DNA from: a virus
DNA length: 33,767 bases
Direction: 5' to 3' (one strand)
IMG/VR virus record: IMGVR_UViG_3300014497_000019
Span: 1-33,767 of that record
Below are positions 1,641-13,816 of this stretch, piece by piece. The stretch's first letter is position 1. Each line of letters begins with the position of its first letter. The position numbers and the translations under genes are program-made. The notes under the pieces are model-generated. The model made no database searches. It saw only the letters and a program-made list of their open reading frames with translations, and had not been told where the DNA came from.

Positions 1641-2431
1641 TGCATCCCTTTGAAGACGGCGGCATCCAGGCGTGAATGGGCCAGATCCAGCAGACGCCAT
1701 GCACCGTGCAGCGCGATGTCGTCGAAGTCGAGGAGCGCGGCGTCAAGGACAGCGCATGCGACGCCGATCGGAGCGCTGGCGTTCTCGCAGTCGCGCAGGT
1801 CCCGGGTGTCCAGCCCGCCAGCAAAGGCGGCCTTCGCGCGTTCCGCGGCGTAGATGGCGCCGTAGAGCAACTCGGTGTTGGCCTCTTGGCTGCGTGAGCG
1901 CATGACCGCGATGCCCTCGGAGAGCATTGCGCCGATCTCGTACATCTCGTGATCGTCCCAACTGGAATCGCTCTCGGTAGCGGCTGGAGCTTGTGCCGGC
2001 GTGACGGGCTCGCTGCCGTCCGGAAGATCCTTCAGGTACGCCGAATCCATCTCGCTGTTGGCTTCATCGAGCAGCACCCATGCCTCTCGGAGCATGGACT
2101 CGACCACCTCACCGCGCGATAGGGCAATGACCCCGTCAATCGCTGCGAGCGACGTGAACATGCCGGTGTAGGCCGCGTCGGCGTCGGAGCGCGTCAGGGG
2201 CTGCCGGTACATCGGTGCGATGGCTGCTGGCAGCATGTCTTCGACGACTGCGCGTAGCAGCACGTCGGCAGCATCGCCCGGGTCCGTCAGCTCAACCGAC
2301 TGATGAGCGAGTTGCAGCTTCTCCTGCCCGAGTTTGAGCTTGGAGAAGATCGAATCGAGCCGCGTTTTCAGTGTGCTCTTGGTCGCCTTCGGCTTGGCCG
2401 CAGCGCGGGGCTTGTCGATGACGGCGTTCAT
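1637..2431 (-). CDS. Hypothetical phage protein, 264 aa
   Basis: A 264-residue protein with a basic, Lys/Ala-rich N-terminus (MNAVIDKPRAAAKPKATKST) followed by an almost all-helical body rich in Ala, Leu, Asp and Glu. Two similar segments, LLREAWVLLDEANSEMDSAYLK-like around residue 115 and ALHGAWRLLDLAHSRLDAAV near the C-terminus, look like an internal helical repeat; a similar AIYAAERAKAAF helix occurs between them. I do not recognise the family. Its start overlaps the stop of the upstream gene and its stop overlaps the start of the next, so it is part of a coupled operon with the antirepressor. Role unknown. Confidence 0.75.
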   Translation of the reverse strand: MNAVIDKPRAAAKPKATKSTLKTRLDSIFSKLKLGQEKLQLAHQSVELTDPGDAADVLLRAVVEDMLPAAIAPMYRQPLTRSDADAAYTGMFTSLAAIDGVIALSRGEVVESMLREAWVLLDEANSEMDSAYLKDLPDGSEPVTPAQAPAATESDSSWDDHEMYEIGAMLSEGIAVMRSRSQEANTELLYGAIYAAERAKAAFAGGLDTRDLRDCENASAPIGVACAVLDAALLDFDDIALHGAWRLLDLAHSRLDAAVFKGMQ

Positions 2432-2790
2432 TGCAGGACTCCTTCCGGAAGCTCTGCATTTGCGCCGTAGATTTCGCGGTGGGCGTCCCCGATGGTGAGG
2501 TCGTCGTTGCCAATGTAGCTCAGCAAAATCGAGTTCATTGCATGGATACGCACGACCAAGGCCCGGATCACTACGCCTTCCGCCGGCTCAAGTTCGTCGG
2601 CGCGCGAGATCACTTCGTTTGCCAGCACCTCGATGTCGGCGGCAGCGTCAAAGACGAGTCGCCAGGCAAAGGTGCCACCCTCCGGCAGTGGCGTGTCGGC
2701 GGTGATCTGATTGGCGGTTGTCTGGCCAGACAAGGCCAGGCGAGGGGGCTCGTTTGGCCCCGAGGCGGGGCTGGTGCTATTCTTCGACAT
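2428..2790 (-). CDS. Hypothetical protein, 120 aa, in antirepressor operon
   Basis: The preferred start is the ATG at 2790 (MSKNSTSPASGPNEPPRL), preceded by AAGGA at good spacing. The frame stays open upstream to an ATG at 2955 that overlaps the stop of the antirepressor (ATGA), so a 175-residue form is possible. The upstream extension is basic, and the DNA there forms hairpins, so the short form seems better. The body has a flexible N-terminus and then helices containing AWRLVFDAAADIEVLANEVI and VVIRALVVRIHAMNSILLSY, resembling small helical phage proteins of unknown role. It is encoded between the antirepressor and the 264-aa protein. Confidence 0.65.
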   Translation of the reverse strand: MSKNSTSPASGPNEPPRLALSGQTTANQITADTPLPEGGTFAWRLVFDAAADIEVLANEVISRADELEPAEGVVIRALVVRIHAMNSILLSYIGNDDLTIGDAHREIYGANAELPEGVLQ

Positions 2791-2951
2791 GTGAATCCTT
2801 ACCTTTTTGACGGGGTGGGTTTTCATAGACGGTCGAGTGGGCTCAATCACTCGGCCGTCGCCTTTTGGGGCGACGCCATCTATGTTGGTGATCTTCAGAG
2901 TACAGGTCGGATCGCGTTTCCGTAAGGTTGCGAAGCGATCCGGCCCAGTTT
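2791..2951 (-). other. Inter-cistronic segment with two overlapping hairpins
   Basis: On the minus strand a 7-bp perfect stem (CGTCGCC with GGCGACG, loop CCAAAA) is followed directly by a 12-bp stem formed by GACGGCCGAGTG and CACTCGACCGTC with one C-A mismatch. The two stems share the GACG bases, so they could compete. They lie between the antirepressor stop and the AAGGA of the next gene. The stretch may be a regulatory RNA or leader, or simply the coding start of a longer downstream gene, because the frame is open through it. Confidence 0.35.
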
Positions 2952-3722
2952 TCATGCGGCCTCCTTTTCGGGGCCGAGCAGCGGCAGAACATTGGGGCTC
3001 CACTTCACTTGCTGAATCGGAACGCCGCTGCCGTGCTTCTTGCCGGTGTCCAGAATGCGTGCGAACTCGCGGCCGGCATCGGTGACCTCCCAGACATCAC
3101 CGCGCTTCATCTGCATACCGGCCTCGGCGAGCAACAGATTCACGCCGCGAGCACTGGCGCCAATGCGCTTGCCCAACTCGGTCGGCGTGAAGAACTGGGT
3201 GTCCTGCTTCTCGGCTTCGAGATGCACCTGGCCCAGGCCTTCGAGCAGGTTCACGTCGGTGAGCTTTCGCACCATCTGGTTGGCGCTGATCGCTGCAGCG
3301 TTCTTGTCGCAGCCGAGCAGGCGGGCCACGCGGAACAGCGGCGGGAAGGCCTTGGCCGCGTCGTAGGCCAGTCGGACAGGTGAGGGAGTCGCCTTCGGTG
3401 CCGTGTAGCTGCCCGTCTTGCGGATCGAAGGCAGCACTTCTTCGAACACCCAGCGCTCGAAGCGCTCGGCCGCTGGCAGGGTACTGTTGACGATCAGACG
3501 GAGCACGTCGGGCTCCGAAAGCACCCGTACCTCTTGCACGCCGCCAGCGGTTTGAAGGGGGTGCAGCTTTTGCGCCCCCTTGCAGTGAGAGCGGATTGCG
3601 GTCGTGGGATCAGCGTAGCCCAGCGCCTCGGCCACATCTTTGCCGACAAAGTAGGGCTCGCTGTCGATCTCAAGCGCCCGGATGTTTGCGCCTTCGAAGC
3701 TGTAGGGAACGATGTTGCTCAC
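2952..3722 (-). CDS. ant: Phage antirepressor, BRO-N plus KilA-C-like domain
   Basis: A 256-residue two-domain protein. Residues 1-110 match the BRO-N/Bro-like domain: FEGANIRALEIDSEPYFVGKDVAEALGY, a conserved L-SEPDVLRLI block and FERWVFEEVLPSIRKTG. Residues 125-250 look like the KilA-C/antirepressor C-terminal domain, with FFTPTELGKRIGASARGVN and EAGMQMKRGDVWEVTDAG. Phage antirepressors of this kind bind or inactivate repressors to trigger lytic growth. The start is a GTG with AAAGGA six bases upstream; no ATG fits. It is second in the operon behind an Arc-like repressor, the order seen around P22 ant. It probably relieves repression by one of the two XRE repressors in this window, but the target is not visible. 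Confidence 0.88.
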   Translation of the reverse strand: MSNIVPYSFEGANIRALEIDSEPYFVGKDVAEALGYADPTTAIRSHCKGAQKLHPLQTAGGVQEVRVLSEPDVLRLIVNSTLPAAERFERWVFEEVLPSIRKTGSYTAPKATPSPVRLAYDAAKAFPPLFRVARLLGCDKNAAAISANQMVRKLTDVNLLEGLGQVHLEAEKQDTQFFTPTELGKRIGASARGVNLLLAEAGMQMKRGDVWEVTDAGREFARILDTGKKHGSGVPIQQVKWSPNVLPLLGPEKEAA

Positions 3723-3780
3723 TGCGGTCCTTTCGTTGTCGACTTTGGTTGATTGAGGTGGCGCTGTCTGCTAAAGCGCT

Positions 3781-3966
3781 TTACTTGACATCGGTGTTGG
3801 GCTCGACCTCGAGCTGTCTATCCATTGCGCGACTCTGCTCAAGGCGCATGCGAATCTCAGCAGATAGGGATCGATACGATCTCGCCGCGGCTGTGACGAG
3901 AAAGCGCTGCAGGTCGTCAGGTAGACGGATTGCCACGTTCGGTTTCTGCTTGGTCTTAACCGCCAT
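3781..3966 (-). CDS. arc: Arc-family ribbon-helix-helix repressor
   Basis: A 61-residue protein: a basic N-terminus, the strand NVAIRLPDDLQRFL, and the helix pair AAARSYRSLSAEIRMRLEQS. This is the Arc/MetJ ribbon-helix-helix pattern, with the strand that enters the DNA major groove at about residues 9-15. The frame is open to an earlier ATG at 4026, but that extension would run across the palindromic control region; the ATG at 3966 follows GGGAG at about nine bases. In P22, Arc represses the ant operon, and here the gene sits 58 bases ahead of the antirepressor in the same direction, so autorepression of the operon is the natural inference. Confidence 0.85.
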   Translation of the reverse strand: MAVKTKQKPNVAIRLPDDLQRFLVTAAARSYRSLSAEIRMRLEQSRAMDRQLEVEPNTDVK

Positions 3967-3982
3967 AGAATGGCTCCCACTT

Positions 3983-4049
3983 AGTATTGATTGGTAATGA
4001 AGAGTAGATGGTCGTGGATTTTGCACGAGGAAATCTACTTGTCAATACT
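3983..4049. promoter_or_regulatory. Divergent control region with nested inverted repeats and a promoter
   Basis: AGTATTGA at 3983-3990 is matched by TCAATACT at 4042-4049, and inside this GTAGAT at 4004-4009 is matched by ATCTAC at 4033-4038. The nested symmetry between divergent genes is what an operator pair for the Arc-like or XRE regulator would look like. On the plus strand TTGCAC (4021-4026), a 17-base spacer and AATACT (4044-4049) form a plausible sigma70 promoter for the XRE gene, overlapping the operator. No LexA box was found here. Confidence 0.55.
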
Positions 4050-4073
4050 ATTTTTGACTCTTTAATCATTTTC

Positions 4074-4574
4074 ATGACTGACTTGCTCAAGGATCGGCTG
4101 ACCAAGACCAGAGCGGCCATGGGGTGGAGTCAGCAGGAACTCGCAGAAGCGAGCGGAGTTGCTGCAGCTCAGATCTCGCGGTATGAGTCCGGCCGCAGTG
4201 AACCTCGGCCAGAGGTGATCGGTAAGCTTGCAAAAGCTCTTGATGTTCAGTTCGACTGGCTTGCTCGCGGGGTTGGCCCAGTCGAGGGCGGCAATCCTGA
4301 ACGCAAATTGCCTGCTGGCAGCAAGGCCCTGCCACTTGATCTTTCGGATGGTGAGTACGACCGAATCGCGGCATTCGCTGAGCAGCACGGCCTGACCAAA
4401 GAGATGGCCGTAAGAAAGCTGCTCTTGGAGGGGTTGAAAGCCCTGTTGGGCGAGACTGAAGTCCAGGACGGCTCTTCGATGTCTGACCTTCAAAGGCGAA
4501 TTAGAGAGAACACTGAACTGCTTCAGGAGCTTCGCTCGCGTATGGAGCTGGTTGAGAGCGGTTCGAAGACCTGA
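4074..4574 (+). CDS. XRE/Cro-CI family transcriptional regulator without peptidase domain
   Basis: A 166-residue regulator. Residues 5-60 form a classical helix-turn-helix: LTKTRAAMGWSQQELAEASG, then AQISRYESGRSEPRPEVIGK. A DWLARGVGP segment follows, which is common in phage repressors. The C-terminal half (SDGEYDRIAAFAEQHGLTKE and MAVRKLLLEGLKALLG, then a charged coiled-coil-like tail) is not the S24/LexA self-cleavage domain. The frame is open to an ATG at 4008, but that would translate through the operator; the ATG at 4074 starts directly before the domain, although its ribosome-binding site is weak. It faces the Arc/antirepressor operon and may control it. Confidence 0.85.
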   Translation: MTDLLKDRLTKTRAAMGWSQQELAEASGVAAAQISRYESGRSEPRPEVIGKLAKALDVQFDWLARGVGPVEGGNPERKLPAGSKALPLDLSDGEYDRIAAFAEQHGLTKEMAVRKLLLEGLKALLGETEVQDGSSMSDLQRRIRENTELLQELRSRMELVESGSKT

Positions 4575-6093: not shown

Positions 6094-6762
6094 ATGCTCG
6101 ATCAAATCGAATCAACCAACTTTTCAATGGTGGTGATTGCGCCTTTCGCGCCTTCAGTCTTTCAGCCCGTTTGGTTTGCTGACCAGGGGCTTGTTGGGCG
6201 CGAAGCTGCGGTCGCAGCAACAAAGGATGGGTCAGGTTTCGTTTTATTTGAGGAAGCGGCTAAGTTTACGCTGGGCATTTTTGACATCACTGTGCAAAAA
6301 GATCGGATGCAAGTGCTGACGACCCGGGAGGATGGCGTTCAGCCAATGGTTGACCTTTTCGTTGCCACGATGTCTCTCGTCGAGCCGCTGAAAGCTACCG
6401 CACTAGGTTTTAACTTCGCAGTCCATTTCAGAACGGGCTCTGAGCGTGGTTGGCATAAGGCCGGCGATCTACTCGCCGGCAAGGATTTTTGGAATGCGGC
6501 GTGGCCGAAGCATGTTGGATTGCTCAATCTACAACTTGCTCTTTCGAGAATTGACGACCATCCTGGTCAGGTGAATGTCCATGTTCAACCTTCTGGGCTG
6601 ACGCAATTCGGCGTCTTTGTCAATATTAATGATCATTTCGATTTCAAAGACGGAAAATCTGGTCCGGAAATAGCAAGCTTTGCATCTGCTGAATGGCAGA
6701 AATCTGCTTATCGGAGCACCGCTTTAATCGAAAAAGTTGTGAAGGAGTCGCTTCGTGAATGA
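6094..6762 (+). CDS. Unknown protein, first gene of the metallo-beta-lactamase cassette (222 aa)
   Basis: I do not recognise this family. It is a soluble, strand-rich protein. An N-terminal block (FSMVVIAPFAPSVFQPVWFA) is followed by an FTLGIFDITVQKDRMQVLT strand pair. The C-terminal half contains LGFNFAVHFRTGSERGWHK, FWNAAWPKHVGLLNLQLAL and TQFGVFVNINDHFDF, which read like conserved core strands. The start is uncertain: the ATG at 6094 has no strong ribosome-binding site and an internal ATG at 6127 is an alternative. It overlaps the next gene by eight bases, and the cassette of three genes has lower GC and more A/T-ending codons than the phage genes around it, suggesting separate acquisition. 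It may be the sensor or partner of the hydrolase encoded third. Confidence 0.75.
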   Translation: MLDQIESTNFSMVVIAPFAPSVFQPVWFADQGLVGREAAVAATKDGSGFVLFEEAAKFTLGIFDITVQKDRMQVLTTREDGVQPMVDLFVATMSLVEPLKATALGFNFAVHFRTGSERGWHKAGDLLAGKDFWNAAWPKHVGLLNLQLALSRIDDHPGQVNVHVQPSGLTQFGVFVNINDHFDFKDGKSGPEIASFASAEWQKSAYRSTALIEKVVKESLRE

Positions 6763-7471
6763 ACTTGTGACGGGGACCGGTCCAAGCCTGCTTCGAATTG
6801 CAAAGTTTCGACATTTCGAGGAGGCTACCAACTTAGCCAGGCGAACCGCGTTAGCTGCCACTGACACGGGGCCGTTAGCCCCGCGGCTTCATTCTTTTTC
6901 CTCTTCGGCTGATGAGGCTCCAGGTCCTTCAACCTTCTTCAGCCTCAACGAGTTTGGGCCAGATGCCAGTAGTTTTTCTCGAAGCGTGCCAGCAACTCCA
7001 CTTTCTTCCGGAGGGTGGAGTGAGAAGTCGTTTGATGCTGCTCGAGGTGACTCGCTCCAATCGGGAACTGCCACTGATCTCAAGAACTCCGTTGTTGAGA
7101 GCGCTGCGCGAACTTCGATTCGGGTAGTTCACCATGATTCAGCACCCACTTTCCGGCCACTGGAGCAGTGGACTGGAAGCGTGGAGTCCGTAGATCGGGA
7201 GGCCCGGACTTTTGTTGCTCGTGTCATCAGTTCCTCACAGGTACGTGACGAATTTGCCGACTTCACTTTTGACGAGGTTTCTGACGACGATCATGAATTG
7301 ATCAACGAAGGGTCTCTCTTCTATTGGAGCGTCGGTTACGAAATCGCGGCCTCCAAGCAACGATCTACCGTGTCGACCGTTAGATTTAGGCGCGTTCACG
7401 TATGGAAGCGTCCTCAGATCGAAAAAGCGCTGATACGGGCGAAATCCTTGACTGCGTGGTTGCTTGAGTAA
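6755..7471 (+). CDS. Unknown protein, second gene of the metallo-beta-lactamase cassette (238 aa)
   Basis: The start is a GTG at 6755 with AAGGAG seven bases upstream, inside the end of the previous gene. Residues 1-130 are Ser/Ala/Pro-rich and probably disordered. Residues about 135-215 form a compact strand-rich domain: LEQWTGSVESVDREARTFVA, DFTFDEVSDDDHELINEGSL, FYWSVGYEIA and STVRFRRVHVW. This W-G-x-V ... F-x-A ... FDEVS ... G-x-x-FYW-x-x-GY pattern looks like a small beta-barrel domain, but I cannot name it with certainty. The stop codon overlaps the ATG of the hydrolase gene by one base (TAATG), so all three proteins are made in step. Confidence 0.78.
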   Translation: MNELVTGTGPSLLRIAKFRHFEEATNLARRTALAATDTGPLAPRLHSFSSSADEAPGPSTFFSLNEFGPDASSFSRSVPATPLSSGGWSEKSFDAARGDSLQSGTATDLKNSVVESAARTSIRVVHHDSAPTFRPLEQWTGSVESVDREARTFVARVISSSQVRDEFADFTFDEVSDDDHELINEGSLFYWSVGYEIAASKQRSTVSTVRFRRVHVWKRPQIEKALIRAKSLTAWLLE

Positions 7472-8550
7472 TGCTAAGCAAAATTGGCCCTTCTACTGAT
7501 CAGCTTGAAATCACTCTTATAGGACCGGGCTACGGCGAATGCGTTGTTATTCACTGTGAAGGAGAATGGATCGTAATCGATAGTTGTCGCGACGCGCGTA
7601 ATAAAAGGCCGGGGGCTTGTGAGTACCTCACCTCCATTAACGTCGACGCTTCAGCTGTTAAATTAGTGGCATGCACTCATTGGCATGATGATCACATCGG
7701 AGGCTTGTCTGAGGTCTTCCAGACTTACAAGAACGCAGCGTTTTGCCTCTCAGGAGCTCTAAAGAGCGCAGAGTTTGCCAAAGTTGCCGAGATTTTCAGG
7801 GACTGGCATCTAAAGCAGCAGTTGCCGATCTCGTCGGGAATGGATGAGTTAACTGACATCCTAACTAGCATTCGGGAAAGTGGGCGTCGACCAAGCTTCG
7901 CTATAGCGAATCGGCAGATTTGGCAAAGTCCTTCGGGAGCAAGCCGGCTTGTCGCTTTGAGTCCCTCTGATGAGACTACGATGCAGGCGAATGCTCAGTT
8001 TGCTACGCTCGTCCCTGGTTTGTGGACTGATCAACGGCGAGCGCGCGATGCCTCGCCCAATCACATTGCAGTGGCGATGCATCTCGTGTGTGGAGTGCAT
8101 ACGGTGTTGCTCGGATCCGATCTCGAAGAGCACGGAAATCCTCATACGGGATGGAGCGCTGTAGTAGCGGATTCGGCGCGCCCTCAAAGTAAAGCGAGTC
8201 TGTACAAAGTCGCTCATCATGGTTCGGAGACTGCAGAGCACCCGCGCATCTGGGCAGATCTTTTGAAAGACAAACCAATCACTGTGATGAGTCCATTTTC
8301 GAAAGCTCTGAATCCTTTGCCCACTGCTGAGCAACGGGCGGTCATCAAGACACGCTCAGCGAGAAGTTTTGTGTCTGCGGATCTTGAAGCTCGCTCGATC
8401 AAGCGGCGTGGTCCACTCGGGCGTATCGTCGGGCAGCGAAATCTCCGGTTGGCGCAGCCGAATCTTGGTTGGGTACGCGCCAGAACTCTCGCTGCCGACC
8501 CGACCGCGGTATGGGAGGTTGAGTATGCCGGCGATGCAGTGGAGCTTTAA
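7471..8550 (+). CDS. ComEC-like metallo-beta-lactamase fold hydrolase
   Basis: A 359-residue soluble hydrolase. Residues 11-75 carry the opening of the fold, with ITLIGPGYGECVVIHCEGEW and then the metal motif THWHDDHIGG (His70-x-His72-x-Asp74-His75). Later motifs also match the ComEC/Rec2-type branch: SPNHIAVAMHL near 195, LLGSDLE with the bridging Asp217, and KVAHHGSE at 246-253. ComEC itself has a membrane channel and an OB domain, neither of which is present here. Related stand-alone hydrolases act on nucleic acids or nucleotides and occur as effectors in some phage-defence systems (for example AVAST type 1), but the substrate here cannot be read from sequence. Its C-terminal 70 residues are an unassigned extension. 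Confidence 0.88.
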   Translation: MLSKIGPSTDQLEITLIGPGYGECVVIHCEGEWIVIDSCRDARNKRPGACEYLTSINVDASAVKLVACTHWHDDHIGGLSEVFQTYKNAAFCLSGALKSAEFAKVAEIFRDWHLKQQLPISSGMDELTDILTSIRESGRRPSFAIANRQIWQSPSGASRLVALSPSDETTMQANAQFATLVPGLWTDQRRARDASPNHIAVAMHLVCGVHTVLLGSDLEEHGNPHTGWSAVVADSARPQSKASLYKVAHHGSETAEHPRIWADLLKDKPITVMSPFSKALNPLPTAEQRAVIKTRSARSFVSADLEARSIKRRGPLGRIVGQRNLRLAQPNLGWVRARTLAADPTAVWEVEYAGDAVEL

Positions 8551-8651
8551 GCGGTTGTCGCCATAGGTCTAACGAGCATTGCAGTGCTTGGCGTCATCAC
8601 GACCGAAAAGCCCGTGTTCAAGCTTTCTGAGGATCCGCGCTAGAAAAGCGC

Positions 8652-9428
8652 ATGCCTGAACCTCGCGGCCGCCGCCACCCCTTGTTTCTCCGACTTACGA
8701 AGCCGATCGAGCCGATCTACCCCAAAGCTGTGACGCCTGTCGCCTGGGACGACGACCAGCCACTGGATGAGGTTGCGGGCGTGGTCTACATCGTCACCCG
8801 GCATTGCGCGCGGATGCAGACTTGGGCGCGACAACTGCGCAAGCTCCACCGGGCCGACGAGACCTACAAGACGGAGGAGGGCATCAGCCCGCTCAGCGCG
8901 GCGCCGTTGCGAGAGGCGAACCTGCGCGAGCTCGGGACCAGCATCGATCTCTACTCAGAGCACGGCGGCGAAGTTCTGTCCGCGAGGTCCGCAGTGCGTG
9001 CATACGTGACCACCGACCTGCTGGCGGTCGTGACGGAGCGAGCCGATGGCGATGCCGTGGGCTTCGTCTCGTTCCAGTTGAAGTGGATCGTCGACGCCTT
9101 CGCTGGCCGGAAGAATGAGGTGGAGCTCGAGGTCGAACTCGACCAAGCCTGGATAGCGCCGGCGTTTCGCAAGAGACGTTGGGGCGAGACTGCTGCGGTG
9201 GCGATCGCTTTTGCGACCGAGCGCCACGTCAAGCACATCCGGGCGACAACACGGTGGCCACGAGAGTTCTACGCAAAGCTGCAGCTCACTGTCGGCGCCG
9301 ACCTCTACAGCCACAGCGGGGAAGCGCTGCTCGCGAAATGCGCCGAGTACGTGTCGTTTCAGTTCAGCTTTGAGCCTGAGCCGCAGCGACTGAGCGTGCC
9401 TCGGATCATCCTGGATGGGCGATGGTAG
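8652..9428 (+). CDS. GNAT-like acetyltransferase-related protein
   Basis: A 258-residue protein. The region at about 130-200 resembles a GNAT fold: AVGFVSFQLKWIVD as a beta-strand pair, then VELDQAWIAPAFRKRRWGET, where the AWIAPAFRKRRWG segment corresponds to the acetyl-CoA pyrophosphate-binding motif (V-x-P-x-x-R-x-x-x-x-G), followed by a long helix and a second strand. The last Gly of the motif is present, but the usual Q/R-x-x-G-x-G/A form is imperfect. The N-terminal 110 residues are unrelated and unassigned. The upstream region has only a weak ribosome-binding site. It lies between the hydrolase cassette and a membrane protein, in the same direction; shared transcription is possible. Substrate unknown. 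Confidence 0.65.
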   Translation: MPEPRGRRHPLFLRLTKPIEPIYPKAVTPVAWDDDQPLDEVAGVVYIVTRHCARMQTWARQLRKLHRADETYKTEEGISPLSAAPLREANLRELGTSIDLYSEHGGEVLSARSAVRAYVTTDLLAVVTERADGDAVGFVSFQLKWIVDAFAGRKNEVELEVELDQAWIAPAFRKRRWGETAAVAIAFATERHVKHIRATTRWPREFYAKLQLTVGADLYSHSGEALLAKCAEYVSFQFSFEPEPQRLSVPRIILDGRW

Positions 9429-11282: not shown

Positions 11283-11705
11283 CTACGCCGCAGGCGGCGT
11301 GAAGAACCGCTCGATGTCGGCGATGGTCTGCTCGATGAGCGCGGTGTCCTCCGGGTGATCGACCAGATCGACCAACAGGTTCCCCAGATTCTTCCGAAGC
11401 GTCGGCCGCTGCTTGGCCGCGATCTCGGCCAAGTACTCCACCAGCGCCCGCACTGACGGCTCTGCATTCGCGCCGACGAGTGACAGGGCGGCGCGCTCGG
11501 TACGCGGCCCCTTGCCAGTCTCCAACCACTCTGGCGAGACGCGCAGCGCCTTGGCGATGGAAACGAGCTCCCGCGGCCGCTGCCTGAAGCCCGATTCGAT
11601 GTTGCCGATCGAGCTTTGGGAGACGCCCACTTCTTCCGCCAGTTGAACCTGGCTCCAGCCCAGCTCCTGCCGGACGGCTTTGACGCGTTCTGCGATTGTC
11701 TTCAC
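11283..11705 (-). CDS. cI: CI-like XRE repressor without peptidase domain
   Basis: A 140-residue helix-turn-helix repressor. The HTH occupies about residues 4-60: IAERVKAVRQELGWSQVQLA, EEVGVSQSSIGNIESGFRQR, then SIAKALRVSPEWLETGKGP. The C-terminal part is a short all-helical segment (RALVEYLAEIAAKQRPTLRK to ADIERFFTPPAA) that may dimerise; there is no S24 self-cleaving domain. The start is a GTG at 11705 with GGGAG upstream; a much longer open frame reaching 12113 runs through the divergent cro gene and is rejected. It faces the Cro gene across an operator-like region, the standard immunity layout, and probably maintains lysogeny. Confidence 0.88.
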   Translation of the reverse strand: MKTIAERVKAVRQELGWSQVQLAEEVGVSQSSIGNIESGFRQRPRELVSIAKALRVSPEWLETGKGPRTERAALSLVGANAEPSVRALVEYLAEIAAKQRPTLRKNLGNLLVDLVDHPEDTALIEQTIADIERFFTPPAA

Positions 11706-11734
11706 GAACGAAATTCTCCCACACCTTTTAAATT

Positions 11735-11763
11735 CGATAGTGTTAGGATTGAGGCTTCTATCG
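11735..11763. promoter_or_regulatory. Candidate immunity operator between cI and cro
   Basis: CGATAG at 11735-11740 is mirrored by CTATCG at 11758-11763, and related sequences (ATAGTGTTAG, TATCGTGTTT) repeat directly within it. The 78-base space between the divergent regulators must hold both promoters and operators, so this symmetric element is the best candidate. Clear -35/-10 boxes were not resolved. Confidence 0.5.
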
Positions 11764-11783
11764 TGTTTGAGTAAGGAGTTGTC

Positions 11784-12017
11784 ATGGAAGCGTTCCTGAG
11801 AGCTGTTGAGATTGCAGGGAGCCGGCTGAGGCTGGCCGAGTTGATCGGCGTTGCCAGTTCCACCCCCGGCATGTGGGCATTTCGAAAGAAAGTGCCGGCC
11901 GAGCACTGCCCCGCAATCGAGCGGGAGACGGGCGTACTCTGTGAAGATCTGCGGCCGGACGTCCCGTGGGGCGTGCTGCGCAATTCGAAGCGTCGATCGC
12001 GCAAGGCGACCGCCTGA
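11784..12017 (+). CDS. cro: YdaS-type Cro-like DNA-binding protein
   Basis: A 77-residue protein with the YdaS/Cro-like pattern: FLRAVEIAGSRLRLAELIGV (helix-turn-helix beginning), SSTPGMWAFRKKVPAEHCPA, then IERETGVLCEDLRPDVPWGV. The motif VPAEHCPAIERETG followed by LRPDVxW is characteristic of this family, which serves as Cro in many betaproteobacterial prophages. AAGGAG lies five bases before the ATG. It is the first gene of the rightward early operon and divergent from cI. It probably represses cI and later its own promoter. Confidence 0.85.
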   Translation: MEAFLRAVEIAGSRLRLAELIGVASSTPGMWAFRKKVPAEHCPAIERETGVLCEDLRPDVPWGVLRNSKRRSRKATA

Positions 12018-12394
12018 TGTCCGCCGTTCATCGTTTGTCCGCGCGCGGTGCCGCGCGGCCTCTCGGTGCGACGTCGACATCCTGTGCCGCAAGCCGCACT
12101 TCAACGTCACCATCGCGCCAACGAATTAAAAGTCGGCTGGTGCGCAGCATCACGCGCGCTGGTGCTCGACCCGCGGGATCTGCGTTGGTGCTGAGCGCTG
12201 TCCATGTGCTGTTGTGGATGAGGTCTGGGTCATTGGCTGCCGCTGGTAGGGCGTGGCGTGTGTTCATGGCTATGCAGTCTCGGCAAGCGAGACTGGAAGC
12301 ACCAGCAAGACAGCCAGCAGTCTCTTGCACTTGTCGCAACCTGCTGCACGGTGCCGGAATGACATGCACGCAGCTGCAAGGAGCTGCAACGTGA
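12017..12394 (+). CDS. Possible hypothetical protein between cro and cII
   Basis: A 125-residue frame whose ATG overlaps the cro stop (TGATG) and whose stop overlaps the GTG of the CII-like gene (GTGA). Such two-sided overlap is usual for real early phage genes. Against it, the sequence is very rich in Ser, Arg and Ala (for example SARGAARPLGATSTSCAASR) and matches no family I know; it might be chance in a stretch of about 370 bases. No ribosome-binding site other than coupling is seen. Reading it as non-coding leader is the main alternative. Confidence 0.4.
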   Translation: MSAVHRLSARGAARPLGATSTSCAASRTSTSPSRQRIKSRLVRSITRAGARPAGSALVLSAVHVLLWMRSGSLAAAGRAWRVFMAMQSRQARLEAPARQPAVSCTCRNLLHGAGMTCTQLQGAAT

Positions 12395-12690
12395 CCGTCG
12401 ACCCTCCCGAAGATCGCGCTCGCAAGATCGTGTCGAGCGTTCTCAAGGCGACTCAGCGCGATGCCTCCCAGACGGCAATCGCCGCGGCTATGGGCGTGAG
12501 CGAATCAACCGTCTCCCGGCTGCTCAGCGATCACCTCGACAAGCTCGCGCTCGTGATGGCCCACGCGGGCCTGCGCGTCGTCGGGCAAGACATGCGCTGC
12601 TTCCCACCCGACTACGTGGATGCGCTGTTGCTCATGGCGAAGCAACACCTGAGCGCCGTGCAGACCGTCCGCACGCTGGAGTGGGACTGA
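12391..12690 (+). CDS. cII: CII-like transcriptional activator
   Basis: A 99-residue protein. The start is a GTG at 12391 with AAGGAG seven bases upstream; a longer reading from 12253 has no ribosome-binding site. Residues 8-60 resemble lambda CII: ARKIVSSVLKATQRDASQTA, then IAAAMGVSESTVSRLLSDHL as the helix-turn-helix, then LVMAHAGLRVVGQDMRCFPP. The C-terminal helix (DYVDALLLMAKQHL) may support tetramer formation, as in CII. It is placed exactly where cII lies in lambdoid phages, after cro and before the replication gene. It likely helps decide lysogeny. Confidence 0.75.
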   Translation: MTVDPPEDRARKIVSSVLKATQRDASQTAIAAAMGVSESTVSRLLSDHLDKLALVMAHAGLRVVGQDMRCFPPDYVDALLLMAKQHLSAVQTVRTLEWD

Positions 12691-12803
12691 TGCGCCGCGC
12701 AATCCTGTGGTTCGCCCACTTCCTCTACTGGCTGCGAGTGCATCGCGGCAATTTCAGCAATGCCCGCTGGGCAACCGATCACGAAATGGGAGCCTGGCGA
12801 TGA
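12690..12803 (+). CDS. Very small protein, 37 aa, coupled between cII and the replication gene
   Basis: The ATG overlaps the cII stop (TGATG) and the stop overlaps the ATG of the replication gene (ATGA). The peptide begins MRRAILWFAHFLYWLRVHRG and ends with a polar tail. The aromatic, amphipathic N-terminal helix could touch the membrane. Such tiny coupled frames are common in phage early operons; its function is unknown, and it may serve mainly to couple translation. Confidence 0.45.
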   Translation: MRRAILWFAHFLYWLRVHRGNFSNARWATDHEMGAWR

Positions 12804-13816
12804 CCAGCGACGCACGTATCTCCACTGGGCTGCCCGCCCATCCGAAGACCAAGAAGCTCATTCGTCGCGCTGGTGTTGCCGGAGCCTGGCATCTCGTGTG
12901 TCTTTTCCTGTGGGCGGCTGACAACCGCAGCGACGGCGCGTTGACGGGTATGAGCGATGAGGACATTGAGCTTGCTGTTGACTGGCCGGGCGAGGAGGGC
13001 GCTTTTGTGCGCGATCTCGTGGCAGTCGGCTTCCTCGATGGCGAGGAAGGGGCACGGAAGATCCACGATTGGGAAGAGCACAACCCATGGGCGGCTGGCA
13101 GCGATGCGCGTTCGGAGAAGTCCCGCTTTGCTGCGCTGTGCAAGCAACACGGACGCGCGGAGGCTGCTAGGAAGATGCCCGATTACGCGGCGCGCTTGCT
13201 ACCCGCTGTGCCAAATAGTGCCAGTGGCACTGCCCCGGGCACGCCAGTAGCACTGCCCAAATCTGCCAATGGCATGCCACTCGCTGAATCTGGCAGTGCC
13301 CCGTCTCCGTCTCCGTCTCCGTCTCCGTCTCCGTCTCCGTCTCCGTCTCCGTCTCCGTTACCAAATACAGAAACCCCCCTTACCCCCCAAGGGGGGAGGC
13401 GAGCCCGAAAGTCTCCGACCGCCAAGCTCGACTCCATGCCGGGGTTCCAGGCGTTCTACGCCGCCTACCCCCGTAAGGTCGGGCGAAAGGCGGCAGAGAA
13501 GGCCTGGTTCAAACTCGCCCCCGACGATGCGCTGCAGGCGACGATCCTGGGTGCCTTGGCAGTGCAGAAGCCGCACCTCGACTTTCGCGAGAACGGGCGC
13601 TACATCCCGCACGCTTCGACCTGGCTTAACGGCGGGCATTGGGAGGACGAAATCCCGGGCGGGCGCAAGCCAGCACCGGTCGATGCCGATGGCCGCGTGT
13701 GGTGGCAGGCCGCAGGCTTCACGCACATCGCGGAAGCGCAGAACGAGCACTGCCACCTCGGCAACTATCGCGAGTTCCGGGGTGGCAAGCGCGTGCTGCA
13801 GGAGGCGACCGCTTGA
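12800..13816 (+). CDS. Phage replication initiator (lambda O-like position)
   Basis: A 338-residue protein. Residues 1-100 look like an initiator-type winged-helix region: STGLPAHPKTKKLIRRAG, AWHLVCLFLWAADNRSDG and FVRDLVAVGFLDGEEG. A low-complexity linker (about 137-190) ends in a Ser-Pro repeat. Residues 212-300 form the conserved C-terminal module of many phage replication proteins: FQAFYAAYPRKVGRKAAEKA, LDFRENGRYIPHASTWLNGG, HWEDE. It is followed directly by the primase-helicase gene, whose TTG overlaps its stop. Repeats in its linker DNA may be the origin, as in lambda O. The start overlaps the stop of the 37-aa frame. It probably binds the origin and loads the helicase. Confidence 0.82.
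   Translation: MTSDARISTGLPAHPKTKKLIRRAGVAGAWHLVCLFLWAADNRSDGALTGMSDEDIELAVDWPGEEGAFVRDLVAVGFLDGEEGARKIHDWEEHNPWAAGSDARSEKSRFAALCKQHGRAEAARKMPDYAARLLPAVPNSASGTAPGTPVALPKSANGMPLAESGSAPSPSPSPSPSPSPSPSPSPLPNTETPLTPQGGRRARKSPTAKLDSMPGFQAFYAAYPRKVGRKAAEKAWFKLAPDDALQATILGALAVQKPHLDFRENGRYIPHASTWLNGGHWEDEIPGGRKPAPVDADGRVWWQAAGFTHIAEAQNEHCHLGNYREFRGGKRVLQEATA
13217..13300. repeat. Iteron-like repeats inside the replication gene, candidate origin
   Basis: GCCAGTGGCACTGCCC at 13220-13235 recurs as GCCAGTAGCACTGCCC at 13243-13258 (one difference), then in looser form at 13265-13280 (GCCAATGGCATGCCAC), and the inverse CTGGCAGTGCC lies at about 13290-13300. Spacing is 22-23 bases, two helical turns. The first copy lies within a near-perfect palindrome (AGTGCCAGTGGCACT). 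Lambda's origin also consists of palindromic iterons inside gene O. An A/T-rich unwinding region is not obvious next to it. Confidence 0.45.
13301..13360. repeat. Hexanucleotide microsatellite (CCGTCT) x9 in the replication gene
   Basis: Nine perfect tandem copies of CCGTCT occupy 13301-13354, followed by one altered copy (CCGTTA). They encode a Pro-Ser repeat linker. Because the unit is six bases, copy-number change by slippage keeps the reading frame and changes only linker length. The plus strand is a pyrimidine-rich tract and the minus strand a purine-rich one. Confidence 0.9.

Follow-up and report, generated by a model that had tools for sequence, protein, structure and literature searches.

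The window analysed here, a 33,767-base virus record from IMG/VR, carries an anti-repressor operon and a divergent regulator that we read, with a probability of about two in three, as a second immunity region resembling P22 immI, guarded by a hybrid repressor with an XRE helix-turn-helix (HTH) ahead of an RHH domain. In a lysogen, the XRE-RHH protein (4074-4574) would bind 10-bp-phased repeat arrays in 3982-4050, shutting the anti-repressor promoter, and would probably also control its own gene. After derepression, the small RHH protein encoded by the first gene of the RHH-BRO operon would damp the burst of BRO, as Arc does in P22, and BRO, by analogy, would inactivate a CI-like repressor encoded at 11.3-11.7 kb. 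The guard itself may have arisen when an XRE domain was placed ahead of a Mnt-like repressor composed of an RHH and a coiled coil; the XRE domain would then have taken over operator reading, with the RHH retained mainly as a subunit holder.

A Bro-N anti-repressor operon faces a divergent repressor

The module comprises the following genes, to which we add the next gene downstream in the operon:

2428-2955, minus strand: next gene of the left operon; its start codon overlaps the BRO stop codon (ATGA)
2952-3722, minus strand: Bro-N anti-repressor, 256 aa (Pfam Bro-N, 78 bits; PHROG 130)
3781-3966, minus strand: small RHH (Arc/TraY-like) gene, 61 aa (Pfam TraY; PHROG 228; position kept in relatives)
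4074-4574, plus strand: divergent putative XRE-RHH-coiled-coil repressor, 166 aa (HTH_3, 67 bits; AF2 pLDDT 86; family alignment)

Gene order and divergence are thus as an earlier, sequence-only reading of this DNA had described them. The product of 2952-3722 combines a Bro-N domain with whole-length similarity to a phage Ant family (PHROG 130 'anti-repressor Ant', E 4e-52, residues 1-244 covered), confirming a BRO-type anti-repressor, and it has 451 relatives in IMG/VR; the KilA-C part once ascribed to it fell away, as the Pfam scan of this protein returned Bro-N as its sole domain, with KilA-C absent. Directly upstream, co-oriented and separated by a 58-bp gap, lies the small RHH gene. Its designation as Arc stands insofar as the product is an RHH protein matching PHROG 228 'Arc-like repressor' (E 3e-5), but its Pfam Arc score falls below the cut-off (14.5 versus 20.4 bits), whereas TraY exceeds its own (27.3 versus 21.3 bits). 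For the product of 2428-2955, no Pfam family was found.

Beyond the RHH-BRO pair, the left operon (470-2955) appears to continue via overlapping ORFs toward xis- and int-like genes, so that the anti-repressor promoter could drive excision genes too; a gene on the opposite strand (about 739-1377) interrupts it, and the contig ends inside int. This continuation on the same strand would also fit an alternative that we consider improbable, in which BRO is not part of a lysis-lysogeny switch and instead acts as a DNA-binding regulator of other genes, such as the excision genes on its own side and strand. Bro-network proteins can indeed repress, as exemplified by CapR (PMC10111431), but the interrupting gene, the whole-length likeness of BRO to a phage anti-repressor family, and the guarding of true P22_AR anti-repressors by the same repressor type in other phages all argue for an anti-repressor.

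The module recurs around related anti-repressors

Direct searches of viral and genome contigs with the window XRE protein found nothing, and relatives were instead reached through the BRO protein, drawing on both viral and genome contigs, and through relatives of the XRE protein. Of the 20 viral loci with the nearest BRO relatives (L004-L023), 15 retain the full arrangement of divergent repressor, small RHH gene and anti-repressor, so the gene order proposed for the window is kept in its relatives. Four others (L009, L010, L014 and L015) have the divergent repressor, with no small RHH gene recognised, and a second anti-repressor gene lies in between in L011, L013, L016 and L017. The immI analogy therefore holds for the module. 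Close BRO relatives in genome contigs come from Xylophilus, Comamonas, Achromobacter and Advenella, so that the window probably derives from a betaproteobacterial phage. One Comamonas locus (L086:3998-5768) carries two tandem Bro-type genes behind a single small RHH gene and a single XRE-RHH guard.

Most of the divergent regulators near BRO are RHH-only and Mnt-like, with lengths of 100-244 aa (Pfam Arc bit scores: L004, 30; L009, 46). An XRE-first regulator was seen in the window, L005/L165, L007, L014, L015 and L086; the recognition helix of the L005 protein reads AATQLSRYE.

The divergent repressor appears to be an XRE-RHH hybrid

For the window XRE gene, the listed ORF begins at 4008; we took the ATG at 4074 as its start, which fits the homologues. 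Three parts can be delineated on the plus strand:

4086-4268: XRE helix-turn-helix, residues 5-65, with recognition helix AAAQISRYE (Pfam, AF2)
4323-4451: predicted RHH, residues 84-126 (family profile, L192 alignment, AF2)
4476-4562: predicted C-terminal long helix or coiled coil, residues 135-163 (AF2 helix)

AF2 modelling with 21 sequences (mean pLDDT 86) placed helices at residues 5-16, 20-27, 31-39, 46-55 and 60-65 in the XRE domain, and at 92-105, 109-124 and 135-163 behind it. The solved folds nearest to the XRE domain of the first model were P22 c2 and 434 Cro, in a PDB comparison whose matches span only residues ~1-76 and are uninformative on the RHH part. The AF2 models are monomeric and so could not show the RHH strand, which forms in an intertwined dimer. 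A PDB profile search gave as its best match an immunity repressor (8bny) that extends past the HTH and is poorly similar in the RHH region; we did not use it.

Evidence for the RHH came from the family. In L192, a single ORF contains HTH_3 (60.7 bits) and Arc (48.9 bits), both above the Pfam cut-off, and this protein aligns with the window protein across the RHH columns, so that the window segment is matched column by column to a Pfam-recognised Arc domain. The C-terminal part of L014 shows two colinear matches to the RHH-only repressor of L009, one across the RHH (E 1e-6) and one across the tail (E 4e-15), the pattern that a fusion onto a Mnt-like protein should produce. Profile-profile comparison by hhalign of 17 fused RHH segments, assembled without L192, against 17 stand-alone Arc/Mnt segments gave a probability of 90% (E 1.5e-6). 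The window protein thus appears to consist of an XRE domain, a Mnt-like RHH and a coiled coil.

A simpler alternative is a plain swap, namely an ordinary XRE repressor whose unrelated helical C-terminus serves multimerization and resembles an RHH by coincidence. The window RHH segment alone has no significant match in Pfam or to an Arc/Mnt HMM, Pfam likewise found nothing significant in most C-terminal fragments, and the structure lists contain mostly plain HTH repressors. With the Arc/Mnt HMM, one shuffled decoy reached 15.4 bits, about level with the L014 C-terminal fragment, so this test is weak on its own even for L014. A coincidental resemblance is nevertheless unlikely in view of the L192 fusion, the colinear RHH and tail homology of L014, the family profile match, and the two helices of RHH length that AF2 places in this segment. 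The proposal that XRE had taken the place of Mnt consequently proved only half right: the HTH is clear (HTH_3, 67 bits), but the RHH that lies behind it in this protein family had been missed.

Opposed, phased repeats overlap the predicted anti-repressor promoter

The start codons of the two divergent transcription units are separated by 107 bp of 36% G+C, in a record of 62% G+C overall. This gap contains the following elements:

3982-3990, plus strand: half-site TAGTATTGA, first of three plus-strand repeats (GTA at 3984, 3994 and 4004)
3994-4009, plus strand: phased repeats two and three; also the left arm of the 16-nt inverted repeat
4033-4050, minus strand: opposed array TAGTATTGACAAGTAGAT (GTA at 4048 and 4038), complement GTCAATACTA
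4018-4045, minus strand: predicted RHH-BRO operon promoter (TTGACA 4045-4040, 16-nt spacer, CAAAAT 4023-4018)

A 9/9-nt inverted repeat joins 3982-3990 to 4042-4050 (TAGTATTGA/TCAATACTA); when the 107-bp gap was dinucleotide-shuffled, 1.9% of the resulting sequences contained an exact 9-nt arm, and TAGTATTGA has these two exact matches only in the whole window. A second, imperfect inverted repeat (13/16 nt) joins 3994-4009 to 4033-4048. Their axes differ by 5 bp (4016 versus 4021), and the repeats are therefore interleaved rather than concentric. Every GTA in the gap lies in 10-bp phase (3984, 3994 and 4004 on the plus strand; 4048 and 4038 on the minus strand), an arrangement equalled in 0 of 5000 shuffles, although the pattern was chosen after the fact. 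The inverted repeats described earlier as nested are thus present, but are better described as opposed, 10-bp-phased repeat arrays. The promoter said to lie beneath them was also recovered: the sigma-70-like TTGACA/CAAAAT pair on the minus strand spans the repeats, with 10/12 matches (shuffles averaged 0.3 sites) and its -35 element inside TAGTATTGACA.

Putative operator repeats follow the XRE recognition helix

The complement of the opposed array, GTCAATACTA, recurs before other XRE-RHH genes. In a search of the 130 bp ahead of the XRE gene that tolerated 0-1 mismatch, it was present in 12 of 15 loci with an (A/P)AQISRYE helix and in none of the 5 whose recognition helix differs; the motif and GTA phasing were noticed before counting, so these figures describe conservation rather than independent events, and TTGAC in the motif is partly accounted for by the -35 hexamer. 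The palindromes of the window are thus conserved in relatives that share its recognition helix. In L189, L191 and L194, the 10-mer match was no better than in shuffles. Between the window and a Proteus prophage, 16 contiguous nucleotides (ACTTGTCAATACTATT) are identical.

Unsupervised motif finding recovered a pair of GTCA words with 10-bp spacing, at a log-likelihood of 82 (at most 45 in shuffles). Tetramer repeats at a lag of 10 numbered 59 against 6 expected (z=16.1, 11 loci), with all other lags at or below z 2.7; the loci are related, so that the motif and lag statistics, like the Arg-13 counts below, overstate independence. This lag-10 signal was absent from RHH-only loci (z 1.3) and from loci with other helices (z -1.0), in which other spacings stood out (lag 24 with z 7.4, lag 22 with z 6.5, based on a small number of related loci). 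RHH-only modules carry other palindromes, such as GACCACGGTGGTC and AAAGCACGGTGCTTT (L018:4720-4812 and L009:4901-5000; GACCACGGTGGTC in L018), which presumably recall the P22 Mnt operator.

RHH repressors such as Arc, MetJ and omega use short repeats in near-helical phase, and the phased repeats could accordingly be the operator of the small Arc-like RHH, with the XRE protein binding elsewhere. The array also contains GTAGA/TCTAC, which we take to resemble Arc half-sites. We nonetheless regard this assignment as improbable. Modules in which the XRE gene has no Arc-like neighbour (L170, L178, L179 and L186-L190) share both the motif and its 10-bp phasing, and the repeats follow the XRE recognition helix, whereas RHH-only modules use other palindromes. 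Many loci with the (A/P)AQISRYE helix lack an adjacent Arc-like gene, which makes the XRE-RHH protein, and not Arc, the most likely owner of the repeats. It is most likely the XRE domain that reads the operator, with the RHH demoted to assembly.

Fused RHHs seldom retain Arc-type contact residues

The residue at the position equivalent to Arc R13 is basic (Arg or Lys) in 18 of 19 stand-alone RHHs versus 2 of 20 fused RHHs, and 13 of the 20 fused RHHs place an acidic residue at one of three positions that contact DNA in Arc, assignments that depend on the alignment where RHHs are divergent. At these three positions the window protein has A, P and D, whereas L192 has Q, N and R.

These residues bear on whether the repressor might be bivalent, with the HTH on GTCA words and the RHH on neighbouring repeats. 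Retention of the Arc-type contacts Q, N and R in L192 would suit such a protein, as would repeat arrays that flank the promoter on both sides; the A, P and D of the window and the acidic contact positions in 13 of 20 fused RHHs speak against it, leaving it a rather unlikely account. The simplest reading is that, in most members, the XRE domain would read DNA and the RHH would join subunits, L192 being perhaps an intermediate or a bivalent protein.

XRE-RHH repressors pair with diverse anti-repressors

A further set of loci (L174-L197) was fetched using only XRE-RHH proteins from a Klebsiella phage and from a Proteus prophage as queries. In 24 of 24 (~16 distinct), a divergent gene begins no more than about 290 bp from the XRE start, and the divergent genes that were scanned are anti-repressors, placed there directly or behind a small RHH gene:

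L174: Bro-N with HNH_3
L194: Bro-N
L176, L179, L192 and L197: P22_AR (P22_AR_N/P22_AR_C in L192, beside the HTH_3 plus Arc ORF)
L188: KilA-N
L191: ORF6N
L195: KilAC/ANT

The Arc position between repressor and anti-repressor is filled by a small RHH gene in L191 and L195. The hybrid XRE-RHH guard thus proves common once looked for, and we found no description of this pairing in the open-access literature. More broadly, and still tentatively, guards of this type may be widespread among anti-repressors: an XRE domain would have been grafted onto an RHH, operator reading would have moved between folds and from palindromes to 10-bp-phased repeats, and the RHH, having lost its contacts, would persist as an assembly domain, across at least five anti-repressor domain types.

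Several of these loci show further variation. The L195 repressor (L195:3926-4798) has two tandem XRE domains followed by an RHH-like segment, and diverges from the small RHH gene and KilAC anti-repressor. In L170:2286-3917, L174, L175, L177 and L178, XRE-RHH repressors guard anti-repressors of ~420-560 aa in which Bro-N is preceded by an HNH_3 nuclease-like domain (L174 scanned). Three candidates were set aside: CUS-3, whose record shows two mnt-type genes; Pseudomonas phage PS-1, a tblastn match in which the repressor runs into an apparent LexA-type peptidase region; and a plasmid match in P. aeruginosa, annotated without a divergent anti-repressor.

Relation to known systems and to the main immunity region

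For the functions of Mnt, Arc, sar and Ant, P22 is the precedent (PMC2629481, PMC7549136). Like P22 immI, or 'ant moron' (PMC2629481), the window combines an operon of a small RHH gene and an anti-repressor gene with a repressor divergent across a promoter-operator region, apart from the CI-type immunity region. It differs in its guard, which begins with an XRE HTH whereas P22 Mnt is RHH-only, with an N-terminal RHH and a coiled coil; in its anti-repressor, Bro-N rather than P22_AR; and in its location, beside int/xis rather than between tail genes. A search of the window for a sar-type RNA gave no Rfam match.

Two other phages come close. Pseudomonas phage Medea1 (NC_074658, L199) has an anti-repressor, a gene of the Arc family (35 bits for Pfam Arc) and a divergent HTH gene in the same order, but its anti-repressor is of the Rha type, the module lies between tail genes, and an RHH is not confidently recognisable in the HTH protein. 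Klebsiella phage ST101-KPC2phi6.1 (MK448231, L170) has an XRE-RHH protein with an identical recognition helix, a divergent Bro-N gene and the same operator word, but with HNH_3 ahead of the anti-repressor, without an Arc-like gene, and among tail genes. In phage TF-smORF modules (PMC10432266), an HTH/XRE regulator likewise adjoins a gene for a non-cleaving inactivator of cI, but there the regulator activates and controls a small ORF, with no Bro-type anti-repressor.

The presumed target of the anti-repressor is the main immunity region, which is separate from the BRO module:

11283-12690, both strands: main immunity region (Pfam)
11283-11708, minus strand: short XRE repressor, putatively CI-like (Pfam)
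11784-12017, plus strand: YdaS-type Cro (Pfam)
about 12370-12690, plus strand: CII-like gene (Pfam)

No self-cleaving peptidase domain was found by Pfam in the CI-like repressor. The CI-like and Cro-like genes are 75 bp apart, and between them TAGGATTGA (11744-11752) differs by one mismatch from the operator half-site; the XRE-RHH protein might touch this region too. The whole window contains four such one-mismatch matches. Elsewhere in the window, a 359-aa ORF (7471-8550) has the HxHxDH motif (HWHDDHIGG) of the metallo-beta-lactamase fold, amid plus-strand genes (6094-9428) that may form an accessory island, and an ORF with ~ten Ser-Pro repeats (12707-13816) lies near the replication genes.

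Some P22-like phages must control ant otherwise than by Arc (PMC2629481, eps34 paper), and XRE-RHH guards would be one non-Arc means of doing so in other phages, though not in CUS-3. Collectively, our analysis puts forward a concrete control circuit for many Bro-N, P22_AR, KilA-N and ORF6N anti-repressors, in which the co-variation of operators and recognition helices makes repressor specificity directly testable. It also brings to light apparent natural intermediates in which a repressor would have changed its DNA-binding fold while keeping the same place and the same job.
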